From NCBI RefSeq assembly GCF_031583145.1, contig NZ_CP134050.1, forward strand, positions 4,763,501 through 4,827,500: a stretch of 64,000 nt of DNA. Direction: 5' to 3'. The first letter of the stretch is position 1, and the number at the start of each line of letters is the position of its first letter. This document shows, piece by piece, positions 10,112 through 20,625 of this stretch. A program made the translations under genes and the position numbers. The stretch comes from Brevibacillus brevis. GTDB taxonomy: Bacteria; Bacillota; Bacilli; Brevibacillales; Brevibacillaceae. Under the pieces are notes generated by a model, which ran no database searches, was not told where the DNA came from, and saw only the letters and a program-made list of their open reading frames with translations.

Positions 10112-10978
10112 CTAGCTCAGCTTGATGATGACGACCCCCGCCAAGATCATGCAAATGGATACCCATTTTACGAAGCTCACCTGCTCCTTCAGCCAGACGA
10201 TCCCGATGATCGTGGCGAAGACGATGCTGATTTCCCGAACGGAGGCTACGTACGTGACAGGCGTGGTCTGCATGGCGTATACCGCCAGCGAGTTGGATAC
10301 GAAGACGAACAGCCCGCCCGCCAGCGTATGCCACGGATAGCGCCTTGCCAGCGACCGATAGGAAACGTGGGAATGCGCCCTGCGGTCGATGATCCACTTG
10401 CCCGCGAACATTCCGATAAACACGACGTATTTGAACAGCAATCCCGACATCATGGAAGCGCCCATGCCGTCCATCACGCTGCTGAGGGCCGAACAGCTTC
10501 CGGCCAGGAAGACCCACTTCATGTTGTGCCAATCTTTCAGCAAATGACTGAGCTCGCGAAGCGAAAAGGAGCGCTGGTTCATGAACACGACTCCCGCGAC
10601 GATGATCAGGATCCCCAGAAACCCGGTCCAGGCAATCGCCGCTCCGACGAAGACGGTACTGATGATGGTCGTCACGATGGGGGCTGTTCCCCGCAGGATG
10701 GGGTAGGCGTAGCTCAGCTGGTTGGTTTTGTACGCTTTGCCCAGGGCGACGAAGTACAAAACCTCCGAGCAGGTGCTGAGCAGCAGCCATTTGATGGCGG
10801 ACGGCGGAAACGGCGAGGTTCGCCACAGGTAGAAGGCCAGTGGAAAGTACAGGATGACGGAGACGCCCAGAATCAGGGTGAAAAAGGCGTCCCTTTCTTC
10901 GATTCGCTTGGAGAGGGCGTTCCAGACGGCGTGGCAGATGGCGGCGAACAACAGGATCAACAAAATGGTGGTGGACAT
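10112..10978 (-). CDS. EamA/DMT-family transporter
   Basis: Integral membrane protein of 288 residues with ten predicted helices arranged as two EamA repeats, the usual size for this drug/metabolite transporter family. The first helix is TTILLILLFAAICHAVWNAL and the repeat signature YAYPILRGTAPIVTTIIS occurs near residue 90. Family members move amino acids, sugars or small metabolites, often outward; nothing here fixes the substrate. The ribosome site before the ATG is weak. It converges with the hydrolase gene, leaving only 18 bp between the stops, and its 5' side abuts the repeat array. Confidence 0.85.
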   Translation of the reverse strand: MSTTILLILLFAAICHAVWNALSKRIEERDAFFTLILGVSVILYFPLAFYLWRTSPFPPSAIKWLLLSTCSEVLYFVALGKAYKTNQLSYAYPILRGTAPIVTTIISTVFVGAAIAWTGFLGILIIVAGVVFMNQRSFSLRELSHLLKDWHNMKWVFLAGSCSALSSVMDGMGASMMSGLLFKYVVFIGMFAGKWIIDRRAHSHVSYRSLARRYPWHTLAGGLFVFVSNSLAVYAMQTTPVTYVASVREISIVFATIIGIVWLKEQVSFVKWVSICMILAGVVIIKLS

Positions 10979-11030
10979 GGTTTTCCCAGCTTTCTGATTT
11001 GTTCTCTGCTTGTAAGGGTGAAGCTTCTAT

Positions 11031-12851
11031 GCTCTCTTTGCGTCTGCCCGTTCGGGCTTCGGTGCTGGGGCGGAAAAAGGCGAAAACGCTCCAGGTTCGT
11101 AGGGACACTTGCATGGAAGGCATCCCTGTCCGGCTCCGCTCCAAAAGAGGAACGGCGGCCAAAGTAGTCGTCTCGAAGAAGCTTCTCATGGGTGGCCGCT
11201 CAGGCGTGTTTCCCTTTTTCCGCTTCGCCTGGGCGGCGTCCCTAATACCTTCGCTTTTTTCGCCTTTTTCCTGGACAGCTGTTGGGGACAGGCGGGCTTC
11301 TCTAAGGCATTTGCAAGCTTCTTCTTCGCGGTCTCGGGGAACTGCTAGTGAATGCAGAGCAGCTTGCGGGTTTCGCTTCGAAGCTCTCTTTGCGTCTGCC
11401 CGTTCGGGCCTCGGTGCTGGGGCGGAAAAAGGCGAAAGCGCTCCAGGTGGGTAGGGACACTTGCATGGAGGCATCCCTGTCCGGCTCCGCTCCCAAAGGG
11501 GAACGGCGGCCAAAGCTGTCCTCTCGATGAAGCTTCTCATGGGTGGCCGCTCAGGCGTGTTCCCCTTTTTCCGCTTCGCCTGGGCGGTGTCCCTAATACC
11601 TTCGCTTTTTTCGCCTTTTTCCTGGACAGCTGTTGGGGACGGGCGGGCTTCTCTAAGGCATTTGCAAGCTTCTTCTTCGCAGTCTTGGGGAACTGCTTGT
11701 GAATGCAGAGCAGCTTGTGGGTTTCGCTTCGAAGCTCTCTTTGCGTCTGCCTGTTCGGCCCTCTGTGTTGGGGCGGAAAAAGGCGAAAACGCTCCAGGTT
11801 CGTAGGGACACTTGCATGGAAGGCATCCCTGTCCGGCTCCGCTCCAAAAGAGGAACGGCGGCCAAAGTAGTCGTCTCGAAGAAGCTTCTCATGGGTGGCC
11901 GCTCAGGCGTGTTTCCCTTTTTCCGCTTCGCCTGGGCGGCGTCCCTAATACCTTCGCTTTTTTCGCCTTTTTCCTGGACAGCTGTTGGGGACAGGCGGGC
12001 TTCTCTAAGGCATTTGCAAGCTTCTTCTTCGCGGTCTCGGGGAACTGCTAGTGAATGCAGAGCAGCTTGCGGGTTTCGCTTCGAAGCTCTCTTTGCGTCT
12101 GCCCGTTCGGGCCTCGGTGCTGGGGCGGAAAAAGGCGAAAGCGCTCCAGGTGGGTAGGGACACTTGCATGGAGGCATCCCTGTCCGGCTCCGCTCCCAAA
12201 GGGGAACGGCGGCCAAAGCTGTCCTCTCGATGAAGCTTCTCATGGGTGGCCGCTCAGGCGTGTTCCCCTTTTTCCGCTTCGCCTGGGCGGTGTCCCTAAT
12301 ACCTTCGCTTTTTTCGCCTTTTTCCTGGACAGCTGTTGGGGACGGGCGGGCTTCTCTAAGGCATTTGCAAGCTTCTTCTTCGCAGTCTTGGGGAACTGCT
12401 TGTGAATGCAGAGCAGCTTGTGGGTTTCGCTTCGAAGCTCTCTTTGCGTCTGCCTGTTCGGCCCTCTGTGTTGGGGCGGAAAAAGGCGAAAACGCTCCAG
12501 GTTCGTAGGGACACTTGCATGGAAGGCATCCCTGTCCGGCTCCGCTCCAAAAGAGGAACGGCGGCCAAAGTAGTCGTCTCGAAGAAGCTTCTCATGGGTG
12601 GCCGCTCAGGCGTGTTTCCCTTTTTCCGCTTCGCCTGGGCGGCGTCCCTAATACCTTCGCTTTTTTCGCCTTTTTCCTGGACAGCTGTTGGGGACAGGCG
12701 GGCTTCTCTAAGGCATTTGCAAGCTTCTTCTTCGCGGTCTCGGGGAACTGCTAGTGAATGCAGAGCAGCTTGCGGGTTTCGCTTCGAAGCTCTCTTTGCG
12801 TCTGCCCGTTCGGGCCTCGGTGCTGGGGCGGAAAAAGGCGAAAGCGCTCCG
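11031..12851. repeat. Tandem array of alternating 352/351-bp repeat units
   Basis: Six copies of a related unit start with GCTCTCTTTG at 11031, 11383, 11734, 12086, 12437 and 12789. They alternate between two types, A (352 bp) and B (351 bp), giving a 703-bp higher-order unit repeated almost without change (A1 B1 A2 B2 A3 and a 63-bp stub of B3). Type A and B differ at many positions, while copies of the same type are nearly identical, which points to recent duplication of an older pair. The first 40 bases of A1 look more like type B, suggesting recombination. Each unit holds a 15-bp inverted repeat (GGAAAAAGGCGAAAA and its complement about 170 bp later), a GCGGCCA/TGGCCGC pair and, at junctions, the palindrome GCTTCGAAGC. 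All six frames are partly open but none has a ribosome site or a recognisable protein, so I treat it as non-coding. Confidence 0.9.
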
Positions 12852-12934: not shown

Positions 12935-13315
12935 ATGAATCGAACACGTGTATTTACAGGATCGCCTTGGGAGCCGGTGGTCGGTTACTGTCGGGCGATA
13001 CGGATCGGCGACAGGATCGAAGTGGCCGGGACTACCGCGATGAAGGACGGCGAGGTCGTCGGCGAAGGGAATCCGTACGAGCAAGCCCGGTTCATCCTGC
13101 AGACGATTGAAAAGGCGCTGCAGGAGTTGGGGGCGGATATGTCCCATGTGGTGCGGACGAGGATGTTCGTCACGGACATTTCCCAATGGGAAGAAATCGG
13201 AAAAGCGCACGGCGAATTTTTCCGGGACGTTAAGCCGGTTGCGACGATGGTCGAGGTAAAGGGGCTCATCGACCCGCGGCTGCTGGTGGAAATCGAGGCG
13301 GAAGCGGTCGTTTGA
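12935..13315 (+). CDS. RidA-family enamine/imine deaminase
   Basis: A 126-residue member of the RidA/YjgF/YER057c family. The ATG at 12935 has AGGAGG eight bases upstream; a longer frame would add ten residues without support. The body has the family core VVRTRMFVTDISQWEEIG with the conserved arginine that binds the carboxylate of the imine intermediate, and the closing motif LLVEIEAEAVV. RidA proteins hydrolyse reactive enamines and imines released by PLP enzymes. It lies next to, but is transcribed toward, the microcompartment operon, which contains the PLP enzyme PhnW; a link is possible but unproven. The repeat array ends about 80 bp upstream. Confidence 0.88.
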   Translation: MNRTRVFTGSPWEPVVGYCRAIRIGDRIEVAGTTAMKDGEVVGEGNPYEQARFILQTIEKALQELGADMSHVVRTRMFVTDISQWEEIGKAHGEFFRDVKPVATMVEVKGLIDPRLLVEIEAEAVV

Positions 13316-13399: not shown

Positions 13400-13675
13400 T
13401 CACTTCTCCTGGGTCACCTCGTATGAGTCGACGATTCCGACAATGACCGCATCGATGGGGACCGTCCTGCCTGGAAAAAGGATCCGTGCGGATGATCCGG
13501 ACGAAACAATGACTTTTTCGCCGACACCGGCCCCGATGCGATCCGCTGCGATCACCGTTCGTCCGCCCTCCTTGTCGTTCCAGTCAACGGGCTGGACAAC
13601 CAAGAGCTTCAAATTTTCCATGCCCTCTTCTTTTTGTGTGGACCAGACGCTGCCGATCACTTTTCCCAAAAACAT
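13400..13675 (-). CDS. eutN: EutN/CcmL-family microcompartment vertex protein (BMC-P)
   Basis: A 91-residue pentameric shell protein of the EutN/CcmL family, which caps the corners of icosahedral bacterial microcompartments. The start MFLGKVIGSVWSTQKEE is typical, with the strand-forming LLVVQPVDW and the loop AADRIGAGVGEKVIVSSGSS, and the C-terminal VDAVIVGIVD-like segment. It is the last gene of the microcompartment unit, immediately before the terminator, and the only vertex protein visible here. Size and motifs agree fully with the family. The presence of a vertex protein supports formation of a closed shell rather than an open scaffold. Confidence 0.93.
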   Translation of the reverse strand: MFLGKVIGSVWSTQKEEGMENLKLLVVQPVDWNDKEGGRTVIAADRIGAGVGEKVIVSSGSSARILFPGRTVPIDAVIVGIVDSYEVTQEK

Positions 13676-13688
13676 GGCGCTCCCCCCT

Positions 13689-14489
13689 TCAGCGGACGTA
13701 ACGGACTACAATCCCTTTCTCTTTCAGCACATCCATCGCAAGCGGAGAGACGATCGCTCCGTGGCGCAGGATCAGCATCTGATCCGGGAAATCCGCTTGT
13801 GATTGTACCCAGTCCGCGGTCACGAGCTTGGCCGCGACCGGCTGCCGGCTTTGCGGCGCGTGCTCGCCTGATCCGGCGAGGACCACCTCCCGCTGAACGT
13901 CTTCCTGCTTGCGGATAATCGCGTCCGCCATGCCGTTTTGGGCCGCAAATTCTACGCCGAGCTCCCTCATGCCGTCCAGATGCCGCAGAAACAGTGTCCG
14001 ATACGGTCCGGGCAAAGACAGCGTGCGAAGACAGCGGCGGTCGGCGCGTTTGATTCCCGGCACGTCTTCTCCCACCAGAACCGGCTTGCCCAGCACGAGC
14101 GCGGAGAAGATGATCTCCGCTTTAATCGTCCCTTTCAATCCCGTTGCCACCCTGGCGGCATTGTCCAGATCGATTTCCGGGATGGCGATGCCGTCGTACT
14201 CTTTCGGCAATTCCAGCGGGGCGGGAGCGTATTCGTCCGTCGCGATGATTTTGCCCGCTCCGCCGCACTCGATCCGGTGCATGCCCAGCCACGAGGACGT
14301 CTCCCCGTCGAGAAACAAGATGTCGTGACAGATGCCGTGATTTTGCAAGGCGATGAACTGGTCGGCGAACGGCTCATGCGCCGTGCTGTCGCAAAAGATG
14401 AACAGCCATTTGGGCCTCTTTTCCTGGGAACCATTCATGGACTGCAATAGCTCGCGCGTGATGGACTCGATCATCTGACGGACATCCAC
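13689..14489 (-). CDS. Microcompartment-associated flavoprotein-like protein
   Basis: About 266 residues, function not established. GTG at 14489 is chosen because GGGAGG lies eight bases upstream and the PduL stop is two bases before it; an upstream start would overlap pduL. Residues 27-160 look like a flavoprotein-type Rossmann fold: a strand (KWLFIFCDS), a glycine-rich loop (IECGGAGKIIATDE) and a strand ending LVLGKPVLVGED. Residues 248-260 read SPLAMDVLKEKGI, closely like residues 30-42 of the PduL next door, so both may share a docking element. Sitting between pduL and eutN, it probably works in or on the shell. It could take part in electron or cofactor recycling; that is speculation. 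Confidence 0.6.
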   Translation of the reverse strand: MDVRQMIESITRELLQSMNGSQEKRPKWLFIFCDSTAHEPFADQFIALQNHGICHDILFLDGETSSWLGMHRIECGGAGKIIATDEYAPAPLELPKEYDGIAIPEIDLDNAARVATGLKGTIKAEIIFSALVLGKPVLVGEDVPGIKRADRRCLRTLSLPGPYRTLFLRHLDGMRELGVEFAAQNGMADAIIRKQEDVQREVVLAGSGEHAPQSRQPVAAKLVTADWVQSQADFPDQMLILRHGAIVSPLAMDVLKEKGIVVRYVR

Positions 14490-14491
14490 GC

Positions 14492-15280
14492 CTACCACCT
14501 CCCTTGTGTGGAAAACAGTTTGCCATTGATCCCGATCAGGCACGCCTGGTCACCCGTGGACAGGTTGGCCGCATTCGCTTCGTCCAGGTCGATGTGAAAA
14601 TCGAGCGCATAGCGCGGGCTCACCCGCACCGTCACATCCGGAAAGATGAGGGCTCGCTCGCCCGCCATCCGCAGGATCAGGCTGTCCCCGTCTTTCACCT
14701 TGGCTGCGCGGGCATCCTCCTCGGACATGTGCACATGGCATTTCGCCACGATCACGCCGCTCGGGAGCACGATGCAGCCGCTCGGGCCGATGATGGTGAC
14801 ACCGGGCGTCCCTTCCAGCGCGCCGGACACCCGGATCGGGGGATGAATGCCGAGCTGGAACCCGTCCGTTTTGGAAATTTCCACTTGGGTCGCGCCTCTC
14901 GCCGGCCCGAGGATTCGTACTCCATGGATGATTCCCTTCGGCCCCAGCAGCGTCACCGTTTCCTTGGCGGCAAACTGCCCGGGCTGAGAAAGTGGCCGCA
15001 GCGCTGTCAGCTGATAGCCTGGACCGAACAGCTTTTCCACATCCTCCGGCGACAGATGCACATGCCGGTTGGATACTCCCACCGGAATGCAAAGCTCCTG
15101 GATGCTTTCGCTATCCGAAGAAAGCCCGCAGGTCGATTGGTACGCTTCCACTTTGATACCTCTCCCCTTCAAAAAATCGATGGCTGCCGGAGTGAATTTG
15201 TCTTCGGCGCGTACGAGATAAGGATTGGGAATCCCGGATGGCAGCATGGCCCGCAGCGTCGTCTCCGTAATCAGAGCCAT
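14492..15280 (-). CDS. pduL: PduL-type phosphotransacylase
   Basis: Converts acetyl-CoA (or propanoyl-CoA) and phosphate to acyl phosphate and CoA, thereby regenerating CoA inside the shell. It has 262 residues and the two PduL half-domains. Zinc-ligand histidines appear in GVSNRHVHLS (near 68-77) and AKCHVHMSEEDA (near 179-190), and a third in LDFHIDLDEANA near 229. Residues 1-45 (start MALITETTLRAMLPSG) are an extra N-terminal region containing TPAAIDFLKGRGI, as found on several cargo proteins, and are the likely encapsulation element. It follows the BMC-H gene at 15291 and is nearly fused to the flavoprotein-like gene. Acetyl phosphate made here could drive ATP synthesis by an acetate kinase encoded elsewhere. 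Confidence 0.93.
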   Translation of the reverse strand: MALITETTLRAMLPSGIPNPYLVRAEDKFTPAAIDFLKGRGIKVEAYQSTCGLSSDSESIQELCIPVGVSNRHVHLSPEDVEKLFGPGYQLTALRPLSQPGQFAAKETVTLLGPKGIIHGVRILGPARGATQVEISKTDGFQLGIHPPIRVSGALEGTPGVTIIGPSGCIVLPSGVIVAKCHVHMSEEDARAAKVKDGDSLILRMAGERALIFPDVTVRVSPRYALDFHIDLDEANAANLSTGDQACLIGINGKLFSTQGRW

Positions 15281-15290
15281 GGGCTATGCA

Positions 15291-15578
15291 TTATCCTTCC
15301 AGCTTGGGCAGGATGAGCTCGATGTCCGAGTGCGGACGCGGGATGACATGCACGGATTTCAATTCGCCCACTTTTTCCGCCGCTGCCGCGCCCGCATCGG
15401 TCGACGCCTTCACCGCTCCCACATCGCCTCGCACCATGACGGTCACCAGACCGCCGCCGACGTGTACCTTTCCGATCAGCTTGACGTTGGCTGCTTTGAC
15501 CATGGCGTCAGCCGCCTCGACCGCACCGACCAATCCTTTCGTTTCTACCATTCCCAGTGCTCCTGTTTCTCCTGCCAT
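15291..15578 (-). CDS. BMC-H hexameric shell protein, copy 1
   Basis: A 95-residue single BMC domain protein of the EutM/PduA/CsoS1 type; six copies form a shell hexamer. It has [19 protein letters not shown], the pore loop region [17 protein letters not shown] and the ending [17 protein letters not shown]. The central GGG faces the pore in this family and suits passage of small polar metabolites. It is nearly identical to the copy at 17133-17417 in protein sequence, although the DNA differs at many third codon positions, so the pair is old and strongly conserved. It lies between the aldehyde dehydrogenase and pduL. Confidence 0.95.
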
Positions 15579-15591
15579 TGTTTATGCCTCC

Positions 15592-17073
15592 TTACCGATT
15601 GGTAGACTGTAGTTCCAGCAGTACGCTCTTGATGATTTCCGCGATTTCATCCCGGCTGATCGCTGGACCGGCTGCAGCCGCCGCGGCTGTCGCCTGTACG
15701 GAGGCCTGCGGGCCCTCCAGCTTCATCTCGCGGAGCCCAAAGGCCACGCGCTTGATGTTGAAAAGGTGCTCCGGTCCGATATTGTCCGAAGTCACATTGT
15801 TGCCAAACGAGCCGCAGCCCAGCGTCAGCGAAGGCGCGATGCCCGTCGTAGCGCCGATCCCGCCGAAGGTCGTGCCTGCATTCACCACGATCCGGGATGC
15901 CGGCTTATCCAGCACGAACGACTCGATCACATGCGAGTCCTGGCAGTGCAGACCGATCGTATGGCCCAGTCCGCCGAGCTCCAGCAGCCTTGTGCACAGG
16001 CGGCTGGCCTCGGCAGTATCGCTCACTGTGTACAGCGTGAGAATCGGGGCGAGCTTTTCGATCGAATACGGATGGTTCATACCGACCTCCGTCTCCTCTG
16101 CGATCAGGAGCGTAGCGTCTTCCGGCACCAGGATGCCTGCCAGCTCGGCAATCGCTTGCGGCGATTTGCCCACGATCGCAGGATTGAGTCCTCCTGCTCT
16201 CATGATGATCGCGGCTACCCGCTTGTGCTCGTGATCGTCGAGGAAATAGGCCCCCTGGCGCTTCAGTTCTTCCACGACCTTGCGCTTGATCGATTTGTCT
16301 ACGACCAAGGCCTGCTCCGAAGCGCAGATCGTTCCGTAATCGAACGTCTTGCTCTGGACGGTTTGGCGCACAGCGGCAGCGATATCGGCGCTGGCGTGAA
16401 TGTACACCGGCACGTTGCCCGGCCCTACGCCAAAGGCGGGTTTGCCGGAGCTGTATGCCGCTTTTACCATCGCGGTGCCACCGGTAGCGAGGATCACGTC
16501 CGTATCGCTGTGCCGCATCAACTCCTGCGAGGCTGCCAGCGTGGGGTGTGCAATGCAGCTGATCAATCCTGCCGGGGCACCTGCCCGTTCTGCAGCCGCC
16601 TGCATGACAGCAGCCGCTTCCTTCTTGCATTTGGCCGCGTGGGGATGCGGGCTGAATACGATCGCGTTGCCTGCCTTTACGGAAATGAGCGCCTTGAAAA
16701 TGACGGTTGAAGTCGGATTGGTCGAAGGCACGATCCCTGCGACCACCCCCACCGGCTGGGCGATCTCCCACACCCGTTTTTGCTCATCGCGCCGGATGAT
16801 CCCGACGGTTTTCTTGTCTTTGATGGATTCATACACATCCACAGCGGCGAACAAATTTTTCACGGTTTTGTCCGCCACGCGGCCGTAGCCTGTTTCTTCC
16901 ACGGCCATGCCTGCCAGGCGTCCTGCCTCGGCACGGGCCGCCTCTGCCATGCGCTGCACGATCTGGTCGATCTGCCCCTGCGACATTCCCGCCAGTCTCT
17001 TCTGGGCTTCCCTGGCTCCTTGCAAACAATGGCGCACTTCCTGTACGGATTGCAAATCTGCATCTAGCATCAC
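15592..17073 (-). CDS. CoA-acylating aldehyde dehydrogenase (EutE/PduP type)
   Basis: Oxidises acetaldehyde (or propanal) with CoA and NAD+ to acyl-CoA, the core enzyme of catabolic microcompartments. It is 493 residues, in the EutE/PduP size range. The NAD fold is marked by GIVPSTNPTSTVIFKALI near 113-130 and the catalytic Cys250 by DYGTICASEQA. After residue 458 an alanine-rich linker leads to a short amphipathic helix, RDEIAEIIKSVLLELQ (474-489), a typical C-terminal encapsulation peptide. GTG at 17073 is used, with an ATG as the next codon; GAGGTG is upstream. It is flanked on both sides by twin BMC-H genes. Given PhnX upstream, acetaldehyde is the probable substrate. Confidence 0.95.
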   Translation of the reverse strand: MMLDADLQSVQEVRHCLQGAREAQKRLAGMSQGQIDQIVQRMAEAARAEAGRLAGMAVEETGYGRVADKTVKNLFAAVDVYESIKDKKTVGIIRRDEQKRVWEIAQPVGVVAGIVPSTNPTSTVIFKALISVKAGNAIVFSPHPHAAKCKKEAAAVMQAAAERAGAPAGLISCIAHPTLAASQELMRHSDTDVILATGGTAMVKAAYSSGKPAFGVGPGNVPVYIHASADIAAAVRQTVQSKTFDYGTICASEQALVVDKSIKRKVVEELKRQGAYFLDDHEHKRVAAIIMRAGGLNPAIVGKSPQAIAELAGILVPEDATLLIAEETEVGMNHPYSIEKLAPILTLYTVSDTAEASRLCTRLLELGGLGHTIGLHCQDSHVIESFVLDKPASRIVVNAGTTFGGIGATTGIAPSLTLGCGSFGNNVTSDNIGPEHLFNIKRVAFGLREMKLEGPQASVQATAAAAAAGPAISRDEIAEIIKSVLLELQSTNR

Positions 17074-17132
17074 GATATACCGTCACCTCTTCTCAGCCGT
17101 TTGCGAGTCTTGCGAAAGGACCTCAGCAGACA

Positions 17133-17417
17133 TCATTGCGATTGCTCGAGTTTGGGCAAAATCAGCTCAATATCCGTATGTGGCCGCGGGATGACATGGA
17201 CAGAGACCAGTTCGCCTACCTTTTCCGCCGCGGCAGCCCCGGCATCCGTCGATGCCTTGACCGCTCCCACATCGCCCCGCACCATGACGGTGACCAGCCC
17301 GCCGCCGACGTGCACCTTGCCGATCAGTTTGACGTTTGCCGCCTTGACCATCGCGTCAGCGGCCTCCACCGCTCCGATCAGCCCCTTCGTTTCCACCATG
17401 CCCAGTGCATCTCCCAT
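17133..17417 (-). CDS. BMC-H hexameric shell protein, copy 2
   Basis: A 94-residue shell hexamer protein, differing from the copy at 15291-15578 mainly at the two ends and at a few interior positions (for example [12 protein letters not shown] instead of [12 protein letters not shown]). It keeps the same pore sequence, HVGGGLVTV. It starts three bases after the stop of the third BMC-H gene, so translation is probably coupled. Two almost equal major shell proteins around the dehydrogenase may allow mixed hexagonal sheets or a higher dose of the main tile. Confidence 0.95.
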
Positions 17418-17419
17418 GA

Positions 17420-17791
17420 CTATTCCTCCTTGCTTGTTTGCGTAGTCGTCGCCTGCTGGCTGTTTTTCGGTTTGCTCGGCTTCACAGGCTGCTTGCCTTT
17501 TTCTTTCTCCAGCTGCTGCAGCACCATCTGCATGACGCTTTGTTCTGGCCTCGGGATGACGCGGGAGTGGCGCAGCTCTCCTACCCGTCTCGCCTCCGCT
17601 TCTCCTGCGGCGACGGCCGCCGTTACGGATGCGACGTCTCCAACCACGTAGATCGTGACAATTCCCGCATCCGCCCCTTGGTAGGTGACACAGCGGACAT
17701 CAGCGGCTTTTGCGGCTGCGTCGGTCGCCGCCACCAGAGCGGGAAAGCCCACCGTCTCGATCATCCCCAAGGCGTAGCCGTTTTCGAACAT
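17420..17791 (-). CDS. BMC-H shell protein with charged C-terminal tail
   Basis: A 123-residue protein with one BMC domain (residues 1-92: [39 protein letters not shown]) followed by a 30-residue Lys/Pro/Ser/Thr/Gln-rich tail. Its pore region, [12 protein letters not shown], differs from the GGG pore of the two major shell proteins and carries an acidic residue, so it probably admits a different metabolite. Tails of this type on minor shell proteins, as in PduK or EutK, are thought to bind cargo or other cell components. The ATG at 17791 has AGGAGG seven bases upstream. It is the first shell gene after the regulator. Confidence 0.92.
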
Positions 17792-17923
17792 GTCGGATCC
17801 TCCTTTGCTGCCGTTTCTCTTTTTTCAAATGAATACCACGTTTATTTTTTGACTCTTTGTTTCTTTCCTTGATTTTCGTTGGGACTATGGGCCAAAAATG
17901 AAGGGCTTCCCGCTCGCCCCGCT

Positions 17924-18709
17924 TCACTCGGCCACTATCCAGTTCACGCCTGTTGCTTCCAGTTTGTTCGCCCACTCCTCCGGCGGATGCACGTCGCTGA
18001 CGACGATCTCCGTTTCCCGCAGGTCCGCTACCTTGTAAAACGTGCTGACGCCGATTTTGGAGTGATCCGACAGAACGATCGTCTCCTTTGCGTTCTCGAT
18101 GAAACGTCTGGCCAGCAGCGCCTTTTCCGCGTCGTACGAGGAGATGCCGTACTCCAATTGGACTCCGTCTATCGCAAGAAAGGACTTGTCGATGAAAAAG
18201 TCAGTCATCATTCTTTCGGCGTGCATGCCTACGGAGCGAAAGTGCCTGGCTTGCACCTTGCCCCCGAGAAAGTAGACGTCCCCCGACCACAGTCCCTGGT
18301 TTTGGTACTCTAAGAGAAGGTTCAGGGCCGGTACAGAGATGGTGATGAGGCAGAGGTTCTTGCGGCTCCTCAGGTACGGCAGCATGTGCATCGTTGTCGT
18401 CCCGTCATCGATCAGGAGCACGTCGTTGTCCTGCACGAGATTCGCAGCGGTGCGCGCGATGCGCTTCTTTTCGTCCGCATGGGCGACTTCCCGCGTGAGG
18501 TGGGAAGGCTCTTCCTGGTCATACCCGGTTTTGATCGCCCCGCCGTACACCCGCTTGAGCCGATTGTCCCGCTCCAGCTCTTCCAGATATCGCCGGATCG
18601 TCTCCGAGGATACCTGCAAGGTCTCCACCAGCTCGCTGGTTTTCACTTTCCCATTGCCGTTCAGCCGATCCAGGATGATTTTTTTGCGCTCTTCGCCGGC
18701 CAGAGACAT
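17924..18709 (-). CDS. DeoR-family transcriptional regulator
   Basis: A 261-residue repressor-type protein. The N-terminal DeoR helix-turn-helix is clear (ERKKIILDRLNGNGKVKTSE, SSETIRRYLEELERD), and the effector domain has the sugar-phosphate-isomerase-like DGTTTMHMLPYL and DKSFLAIDGVQ motifs. DeoR proteins usually sense phosphorylated sugars; here a phosphorylated pathway intermediate such as phosphonoacetaldehyde would be the matching ligand (inference). It starts seven bases after the phnW stop, between the phosphonate genes and the shell genes, so it most likely controls both. Candidate operators are the A/T-rich direct repeats next to the phnS promoter at 24602-24668. Confidence 0.9.
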   Translation of the reverse strand: MSLAGEERKKIILDRLNGNGKVKTSELVETLQVSSETIRRYLEELERDNRLKRVYGGAIKTGYDQEEPSHLTREVAHADEKKRIARTAANLVQDNDVLLIDDGTTTMHMLPYLRSRKNLCLITISVPALNLLLEYQNQGLWSGDVYFLGGKVQARHFRSVGMHAERMMTDFFIDKSFLAIDGVQLEYGISSYDAEKALLARRFIENAKETIVLSDHSKIGVSTFYKVADLRETEIVVSDVHPPEEWANKLEATGVNWIVAE

Positions 18710-18715
18710 AGGCCG

Positions 18716-19828
18716 CTACCAGAACAGGTTTTGCTCGACCGCCTGTACCAGCCGCTTCATGTCGTGCGGATATACCTCACCGATATTGCCGATGCGGAAT
18801 GTGTCCGCCACGGAGATTTTTCCCGGATAGATCACGAAGCCTTCCTTTTTCAAGCGTTCGTAAAACGCCGCAAACGTGAACGCCGGACTGTCCGGATAGT
18901 AAAAGGAAGTGATGATCGGCGACTGCAGCTCTTTGGGCAGCAGCGTGACGAAGCCGAGCTTCTCCATGCCTTCTACCAGTGTGCGTTGGTTTTCCCGGTA
19001 CCGGACGCAGCGCTTTTCCACGCCGCCCTCCTCCTCCAGCTCCGCCAGCGCCTGGTAAAACGCGCGAACGACGTGGGTAGGCGAAGTGTAGCGCCACTTG
19101 CCGTTATGCTTTTCCATCGTGTCCCACTGGTCGTACAGATCAAGCGAGAGGGACCGCGCCTGGCCACTGCATTTTTTCAGTTCGTCGATCTTTGCCACAA
19201 CGAACCCAAAGCCGGGCACTCCCTGGATGCACTTGTTGGCGCTGCTGATCAGAAAGTCGATTCCCAGGCCGGGCACATCGATCGGGACGCCGCCGAAGCT
19301 GCTCATCGCGTCGACGATCAGCACTTTTCCATGCGCTTTCGCCACCTTCGCGACCTCTGCGATCGGATTGAGCATGCCGGTCGTCGTCTCGCAATGCACC
19401 ACCGCCACGTGAGTGATCTTCGGATCCTGCTCCAACGCCTTCTGCAAAGCATCCGCCTCGGCAGCGGCCACTTCGCCAAAGTCGATGACCTGCGTCTCGA
19501 TTTTCAGCACCTGAGCCATCTGGGCCAGCCGATTGCCGTAGGCTCCGTTGGTCATTACGACCAGCTTGCCGTCCGCCGGCACGGCCGAGCCGACTACCGC
19601 TTCTACGGAAAAGCTGCCGCTGCCTTGCATGAGAACGGCGGTGTAATCGTCCTGGCTTGCTTCGGCCAAACCGACCAGCTTGCGCCGAATCACCTGGACC
19701 AGATCGTTGTACTCGCTGTCCCACGTGCACCAGTCTCGCAGCATGGCCGCCTTTACACCCTTTGAGGTCGACAGCGGACCCGGGGTCAACAAGAGGTACG
19801 GATTGTCGGGCAATTGCGTGAGTTTCAT
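18716..19828 (-). CDS. phnW: 2-aminoethylphosphonate--pyruvate transaminase
   Basis: PLP enzyme that converts 2-aminoethylphosphonate and pyruvate to phosphonoacetaldehyde and L-alanine. It is 370 residues from the ATG at 19828, chosen because GGAG lies eight bases upstream; an ATG two codons earlier has no spacing. It begins [13 protein letters not shown], has the PLP aspartate in [11 protein letters not shown] near 173 and the Schiff-base lysine in [15 protein letters not shown] near 199. No extra N- or C-terminal extension is seen, so it lacks an obvious encapsulation signal. It starts two bases after the phnX stop. PhnX and PhnW together form the standard phosphonatase route. Confidence 0.96.
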
Positions 19829-19830
19829 CG

Positions 19831-20625
19831 TCATCTCTCCTTTTGCGCCAGGCGCAGGTTGATTTTCGGGATGAGCGTATCCAGCTCGCCGATGGATTCA
19901 ATCACATAGTCGGCTCCGACCGCCTTGAAGCGCTTGGCCACCGCCTCCATTCTGTCGTACAGAACATCGGGGTCGCATTCCTGCACTTCCCGTTCGGTCA
20001 TGCCCAGCTCGCTGCTCCCCTTGATCACTCCGACGGCCCATGCCCCGGCTGCCACCGCTTCTTTAATATCGCTGGTGGTGTCTCCCACCTTGATGATGTG
20101 CTTCATGGGGTGGACGTCCAGGTTGATCGCGTTTTGATAGCACATCCAGGGCAAGGGCCGTCCAGCCGGCATCTCGCTGGGCGTGACCATCGAGTCGGGA
20201 GCGTATCCCTTCTTCTTGGCTTCCGGCGCCACGACGGCCATCATCTCCGCCGTGTATCCCGTAGTCGATCCGATTTTGATGCCGGCGGCCCGCAGCCGCG
20301 CCACCAGCTCCAGCACTCCCGGTATCGGAGTGGTGTAGTTTTTCAAAATGGAAAACAGCATCGGCTCGAAATCGGCATACAGCATGTCGACGTCTTTCTT
20401 CTCCGGAAGCCTGCCGTATTTCGCTTTCCACAGATTTGCAATCCTGTCCATTTTCAGCATCGTGTCGATGTGATCCCACTTGAGCATCCCCATCGGCTCT
20501 CGCGCTTCCTCGTGCGTGACTTCGATGCCCCGCTTTTTGAACACCTCCAAAAAGACGTCGAGGGGCGCGAAGCATCCATAGTCAACGGTTGTTCCGGCCC
20601 AGTCAAAGATCACTGCTTGAATCAT
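19831..20625 (-). CDS. phnX: Phosphonoacetaldehyde hydrolase (phosphonatase)
   Basis: HAD-superfamily enzyme that splits phosphonoacetaldehyde into phosphate and acetaldehyde. It is 264 residues, the usual length. The nucleophile is Asp8 in [11 protein letters not shown], the Schiff-base lysine is Lys49 in [10 protein letters not shown], and the C-terminal acidic motif is [13 protein letters not shown]. It has no added tail that would suggest packing into a shell. The acetaldehyde it makes is the substrate of the acylating dehydrogenase downstream, which gives the microcompartment its likely purpose. GGGGAG precedes the ATG. Confidence 0.96.

Follow-up and report, generated by a model that had tools for sequence, protein, structure and literature searches.

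What a tandem array of roughly 350-bp units represents, and whether it has anything to do with the genes around it, is the question raised by a 64,000-nucleotide window of the Brevibacillus brevis chromosome (the whole stretch of DNA analysed here). An earlier note, made from the letters alone, had described five full units and a stub that alternate between 352 and 351 bp, and had offered a mobile non-coding element, a structured RNA or a recombination site as explanations.

Anatomy and surroundings of the array

The whole array occupies 11032..12851 on the plus strand, which is the strand that the covariance model R1 (see below) reads. The strand called "sense" below reads away from terminators in other species, and is the minus strand at the window array. 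The exact units measure 352, 351, 352, 351 and 352 bp and are followed by a 62-bp stub, while TRF reports a period of 352 with 5.2 copies and 94% matches at 11023-12850; both confirm the alternation described earlier. Units 1, 3 and 5 (11032..11383, 11735..12086 and 12438..12789) are of type A and 352 bp long, and units 2 and 4 (11384..11734 and 12087..12437) are of type B and 351 bp long; the stub of the sixth unit (12790..12851) is also of type B, and all are on the plus strand. Each unit contains one hairpin core, likewise on the plus strand, located at 11072..11270, 11775..11973 and 12478..12676 in the type A units (216.1 bits each) and at 11424..11621 and 12127..12324 in the type B units (213.9 bits each).

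Unit 2 is identical to unit 4 and unit 3 to unit 5 (100% in both cases), and unit 1 shares 98.6% identity with unit 3, whereas type A and type B units are 94-95% identical, with one 1-bp gap. The 703-bp pair at 11384-12086 recurs at 12087-12789 with zero differences, so that a repetition previously called nearly unchanged is in fact exact, and 1082 bp (11066..12147, plus strand) recur exactly 703 bp further on, as the mark of a recent amplification. Since types A and B differ by 5-6% while the copies of the pair are identical, the two types go back to an old duplication, and the doubling of the A/B pair is very recent. The unit identities thus support the history proposed in the earlier note, in which an old duplication diverged before the pair was amplified.

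The units had been said to lack convincing genes, and this statement holds. Five long ORFs of the array have no Pfam match, the lengths of the core fall in all three classes modulo 3, and between 71 and 127 of 135 copies have an interruption in any given reading frame. A protein-coding array was rejected, as there is no conserved open frame or domain. The Rfam 15 covariance models gave no match to the element at E values up to 1, and the sole hit at the gathering threshold was the neighbouring group II intron.

The array sits in the divergent gap between an EamA-type transporter gene (10112..10978, minus strand; TIGR03340 below the cut-off), the upstream side of which faces the array, and a Rid-family (YjgF/RidA) gene (12935..13315, plus strand). 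No promoter-like site was found at the array, and on the side of the stub a scan found no terminator, a T7 tract beside the stub being the only related feature. In the related genome G009, the EamA and Rid genes are adjacent without any element between them, and the gap orthologous to the window site contains no precise pre-insertion allele. The window array is a presence/absence difference between species and, with one empty neighbour (G009) compared, may reflect either gain or loss.

The array does abut the microcompartment region, as was pointed out before, but the significance attached to this position did not survive comparison. In B. reuszeri, B. parabrevis and B. borstelensis, about 70 bp separate EamA from the gene for the microcompartment vertex protein, with no array there, and EamA and Rid adjoin each other without an array in G009; the adjacency therefore looks incidental. 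A functional link between the array and the microcompartment genes was rejected on this array-free gene order. As a separate observation, the microcompartment locus (13400-20625, minus strand) encodes shell and vertex proteins, a PduL/EutD-like acyltransferase and an acylating acetaldehyde dehydrogenase, together with PhnW (TIGR02326, 601 bits) and PhnX phosphonatase (TIGR01422, 369 bits). From its gene content, it looks like a compartment for the breakdown of 2-aminoethylphosphonate via acetaldehyde, and a search of open-access literature found no paper combining a microcompartment with PhnW/PhnX-type genes.

An interspersed family of long DNA hairpins

A search of the genome and its relatives with one unit, as the earlier note had recommended, revealed a genus-wide interspersed family. 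By BLAST, the array unit matches 36 places in its own genome and is found in 19 of the 26 genomes of the genus, and the part common to the loci is a core of about 198 nt with a nearly constant length. R1, a covariance model built on 33 copies, has matches in 24 of the 26 Brevibacillus genomes (the other two have none), in 32 of the 39 genomes of the order and in five of the seven genera of the family. The number of R1 matches is 45 in the own genome (G000) and 98 in G007, the richest scored (150 candidates scored); these counts include weak rows in which the same palindrome is read on the other strand, so that distinct copies are somewhat fewer. Within the family the copy number ranges from 0 to 98. 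The window array thus arose when a single member of this family of interspersed, non-coding long-hairpin DNA elements of the Brevibacillaceae was amplified in tandem. The element was previously uncatalogued, and a search of open-access papers found no Brevibacillus repeat of this kind.

In a class-wide R1 search of 398 genomes, 27 of the 30 positives belong to the Brevibacillus family. Outside it, related hairpins of 58-73 bits occur in G087 and G127, and one further genome has a single weak hit. The hairpins of G087 and G127 (loci L222-L227), which come from another family of Bacilli, have the same unpaired motifs. Phage and plasmid collections contain no R1 match, and a phage or plasmid origin was rejected on this result.

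The full element in related species is about 490 bp long and consists of two homologous hairpins in inverted orientation. Dispersed copies in G007 share about 495 bp of homology with sharp ends, and in these copies both the core hairpin and a second one lie inside a short and variable outer pairing, GCTGTAGTGG...CCACTACAGC; for the window units, the ends are not set by this pairing. On the opposite strand, the second hairpin fits R1 over the full length of the model (37.5 and 35.3 bits; E 6e-12 for the former), so that the composite consists of two homologous hairpins in opposite orientation. The inverted partners in G001, G014, G017 and G019 resemble R1 closely enough to be scored in full.

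G007 also has hits of 58-75 bits that make up another subfamily, one that resembles only the second hairpin and is mostly opposite to the model orientation, as is the second hairpin in the composite. At one of its loci (L169, 1700-4400), metalloprotease-like and lipoprotein-like ORFs lie between element copies, along with an extra copy of the second hairpin, and tandem copies may thus host gene insertions. In G002 (L129, 302-1671), the element at site A is split by two transposase-like ORFs that are probably pieces of a single broken gene.

The inverted repeats previously seen in the units are real, and proved far stronger than could be told from the letters of the window. The core forms one long hairpin, composed of an outer helix of about 14-16 pairs, a second helix of about 10-15 pairs, an AU-rich inner helix and an apical helix, which are separated by conserved unpaired motifs. 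The helices were named by hand, and the copies were then realigned with the covariance model. In the sequence-only alignment A1, pairing holds in 93.4% of cells over the 53 named pairs, 30 of which have two-sided changes, and falls to 45-62% when partners are slid. In A2 (128 distinct copies), an alignment fitted to the covariance model and hence leaning to it, 94.5% of cells are paired as compared to 42-56% in the slid controls, and two-sided changes occur in 37 of the 53 pairs, with 557 double-change cells against 143 after shuffling; A1 gives the same picture. RNAalifold on a plain MAFFT alignment gave a weak signal, with misalignment the probable cause. The covariation of the conserved fold, a check that the earlier note had suggested, is thus strong.

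Whether this covariation reflects RNA can be judged from wobble pairs. In a functional RNA, G.U is expected to exceed A.C on the functional strand. One-sided departures in the element are rare and comprise 56 G.U against 73 A.C cells when the near-constant U.G pair 28-207 is set aside (155 against 73 with this pair included), whereas SAM riboswitches of the same genus, used as a control, have 49 G.U and 0 A.C. The contrast between element and riboswitch gives a Fisher P of 1e-14, which is indicative, as the cells are not independent. Because G.U and A.C are about equal, the complementarity appears to be kept at the DNA level, and the aligned sequences suggest that the hairpin is a DNA-level palindrome rather than an RNA. 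When the count is restricted to pairs in which 85% or more of the cells are Watson-Crick, it tilts 69:34 towards wobble on the other (sense) strand, which leaves room for a minor RNA role. Of the earlier proposal of a structured RNA, the structure is strongly supported by the covariation, while the lack of wobble asymmetry favours a DNA palindrome over an RNA; the recombination site found no support. The fold persists in the subfamilies of G007 and of other genera, as does, by eye, the motif around GGAG.CGG.CAGTC. This conservation of unpaired motifs across diverged subfamilies suggests a recognised function beyond mere palindromy.

Chromosomal placement, inheritance and origin

Orientation was counted for loci above about 100 bits in four genomes, with a few weaker G000 loci included and neighbouring copies merged by hand; dnaA lies at the contig start, and the terminus was taken as half the contig. 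Relative to the replication fork, 29 of 29 loci in G007, 26 of 27 in G005, 12 of 13 in G009 and 15 of 19 in G000 are oriented alike, giving 82 of 88 in total. Gene co-directionality in G007 is 98 of 149 (66%; ten sampled 20-kb stretches), and the fork polarity exceeds what gene bias alone would give (P 1e-9). The terminus third is depleted, holding five of 87 loci (P 8e-10). In G007, the one species in which terminator adjacency was measured, a terminator-like hairpin with a T-run lies within 105 nt upstream in 15 of 21 cases and downstream in none of the 21, as compared to 21 of 128 control windows, so that the element is placed after the terminator, not before it. By simple ORF calls, the sense strand at most G007 loci reads away from the upstream gene.

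Searches with the joined flanks of six G007 sites located the corresponding gaps in eight other genomes, and almost all of these gaps contain the element or have room for it; some sites, split between contigs, were left unjudged. All six sites are common to most related species, and thus give no sign of recent movement. The one absence (site E in G022) shows neither a clean excision nor a precise pre-insertion allele. Copy number at a site does vary: the psd-gat site has three tandem copies here, one core at the same place in G008 and G004, and one core plus an inverted partner in G014. Cores at the same site in different genomes are 92.2% identical, those at different sites within one genome 91.2%, and all others 90.4%. 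In the tree of cores the sites are intermingled, as expected if copies exchange sequence. Target-site duplications and clean empty sites were sought by the joined-flank searches, in which sites were shared or imprecisely empty; no transposase, autonomous copy or clean target duplication was found.

In our best explanation, which we hold with about even confidence, the family is a non-autonomous palindromic repeat derived from a mobile element, now mostly vertically inherited and here amplified by unequal recombination. Copies would have been placed in trans by a putative enzyme acting on single-stranded DNA, probably the lagging-strand template, with a preferred target just 3' of intrinsic terminators of fork-co-directional genes. 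We propose that this preference arises because a hairpin can form there, and that single-strand insertion at such terminators would fix the polarity relative to the fork. Strict arm complementarity would be kept by DNA hairpin formation together with conversion between arms and between copies, the arms being homogenised by template switching or conversion, and the conserved unpaired motifs would be the parts recognised by protein. Most copies would now be immobile and passed on vertically, while runs of direct neighbours would grow and shrink through unequal recombination or slippage during replication. For the window array, a first duplication would have produced the pair, the units would have diverged by about 5-6%, and the 703-bp pair would have been duplicated very recently. 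Counting against this explanation, neither the G009 gap nor site E of G022 is a precise empty allele, and the window array itself has no clear terminator upstream. The mobile non-coding element of the earlier note is therefore the best-supported reading of the family; its non-coding nature holds, while its mobility is something that we infer.

The leading rival is a host-functional polar DNA hairpin on one template strand, bound by a replication, recombination or nucleoid protein and selected at fixed intergenic sites and in fixed orientation. The locking of orientation to the fork, the depletion of the terminus third and the retention at orthologous sites across species fit it likewise, as do the strict Watson-Crick covariation and the conserved unpaired motifs. 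However, the copy number varies from 0 to 98 within the family, two Brevibacillus genomes lack copies, the polarity in the own genome is imperfect (15/19), and shared conserved neighbours alone could explain why old copies survive near the origin; we consider this rival a tentative possibility. Its broader form, a family-wide system of polar hairpins of about 200 nt, often in inverted pairs, that are exposed on one template strand in each replication round, scarce in the terminus third, recognised by a host protein and selected at fixed sites, is unlikely. A structured RNA, acting as a 3'-UTR or small-RNA element through read-through of leaky terminators, for mRNA stability or as a dispersed sRNA, would account for the co-orientation of most G007 loci with the upstream gene and for the very stable predicted fold, and partial transcription within UTRs is described for the bcr repeats of B. 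cereus (PMC3446304). Nevertheless, we judge it quite improbable, given that wobble asymmetry is absent on either strand, the element follows the terminator, Rfam has no match and the array has no promoter-like site.

Recognition of terminator stem-loops has been reported for group IIC introns (PMC7923331), and in G007 a group II intron with a 420-aa reverse transcriptase immediately precedes one copy of the element in the same orientation. That the element is a non-coding retroelement moved by such reverse transcriptases, inserting downstream of terminator hairpins, is nonetheless very doubtful: G000, G002 and G006 lack the RF01998 intron and yet have 45, 86 and 74 copies, G003 has 10 introns and zero copies, and the element lacks domain V and is an inverted pair, unlike a spliced RNA. 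A relative or dependant of group II introns was rejected on this uncorrelated abundance and because no intron model matches within the element. Separately, RF01998-class introns reach 19 copies among the genomes surveyed (G010, G021, G016 and G007), and those of G010 and G021 are almost all co-oriented, plus on one arm and minus on the other. An ordinary local satellite or an assembly artefact has a negligible probability. Near-identical tandem units can be mis-assembled, but the unit belongs to a genus-wide family, whose interspersed relatives refute the local satellite. Collapse or inflation of the array is unlikely as judged from the assembly rather than from reads (three contigs, of which one of 6.147 Mb encloses the array), since several further loci, and other species too, have the same element in tandem.

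Relation to known repeats and significance

The palindromic repeat described here presents an unusual combination, with at most about 100 large hairpins per chromosome that are almost all fork-aligned, terminus-depleted, retained between species and almost free of G.U. It offers a natural test of three possibilities for long bacterial palindromes: selfishness, correction through template switching at the fork, and a role in replication or in the organisation of the chromosome. A further lesson is that extended covariation of an "RNA-like" kind can arise in DNA, and that the wobble-asymmetry test tells the two apart. R1 allows annotators to recognise the family.

Among known repeats, bcr1 is about 155 bp long with TTTAT direct repeats, which were not found in the Brevibacillus element. 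The latter also differs from bcr1, as described, in its hairpin core of about 200 nt, its inverted pair of about 490 bp in several species, its fork polarity and its adjacency to terminators. The bcr1-bcr18 repeats of the Bacillus cereus group include families that are MITE-like and others with conserved secondary structure (PMC3446304), and the element resembles them in being chromosomal, intergenic, non-coding, multi-copy and specific to a genus group. MITEs, Correia/NEMIS, RUP, BOX, ERIC/IRU, RU-1/2/3 and SPRITE are short, dispersed, intergenic stable stem-loops (reviewed in PMC10969869). Like MITEs, the element is short and non-coding, with many dispersed copies, but a target-site duplication with a precise empty site was found neither at site E of G022 nor at the G009 orthologue of the window site. 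In contrast to MITEs and the other palindromic repeats, no target-site duplication or parental insertion sequence was found for it, and it has nested helices with conserved asymmetric loops and is locked to the replication direction. REP/BIME sequences are intergenic palindromes often clustered after genes, but REPs measure about 20-40 nt, as compared to a core of 198 nt in the element.

Two further systems share its placement or shape. The element resembles group IIC introns in its position immediately after terminator hairpins and in sharing the direction of gene and fork, but it has no ribozyme domains or ORF, and its abundance is uncorrelated with theirs. Like integron attC sites, it forms long imperfect single-strand hairpins, and genes lie between its copies at one site (L169), but it is much longer than attC is generally known to be. 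As the target duplication and the parental transposon are missing, we claim no membership in a named family. In the broad sense, the element is one of the interspersed palindromic repeats of bacteria, together with bcr1, MITEs, BOX and ERIC, and stands out from these by its size, inverted-pair anatomy, strict complementarity and fork polarity.
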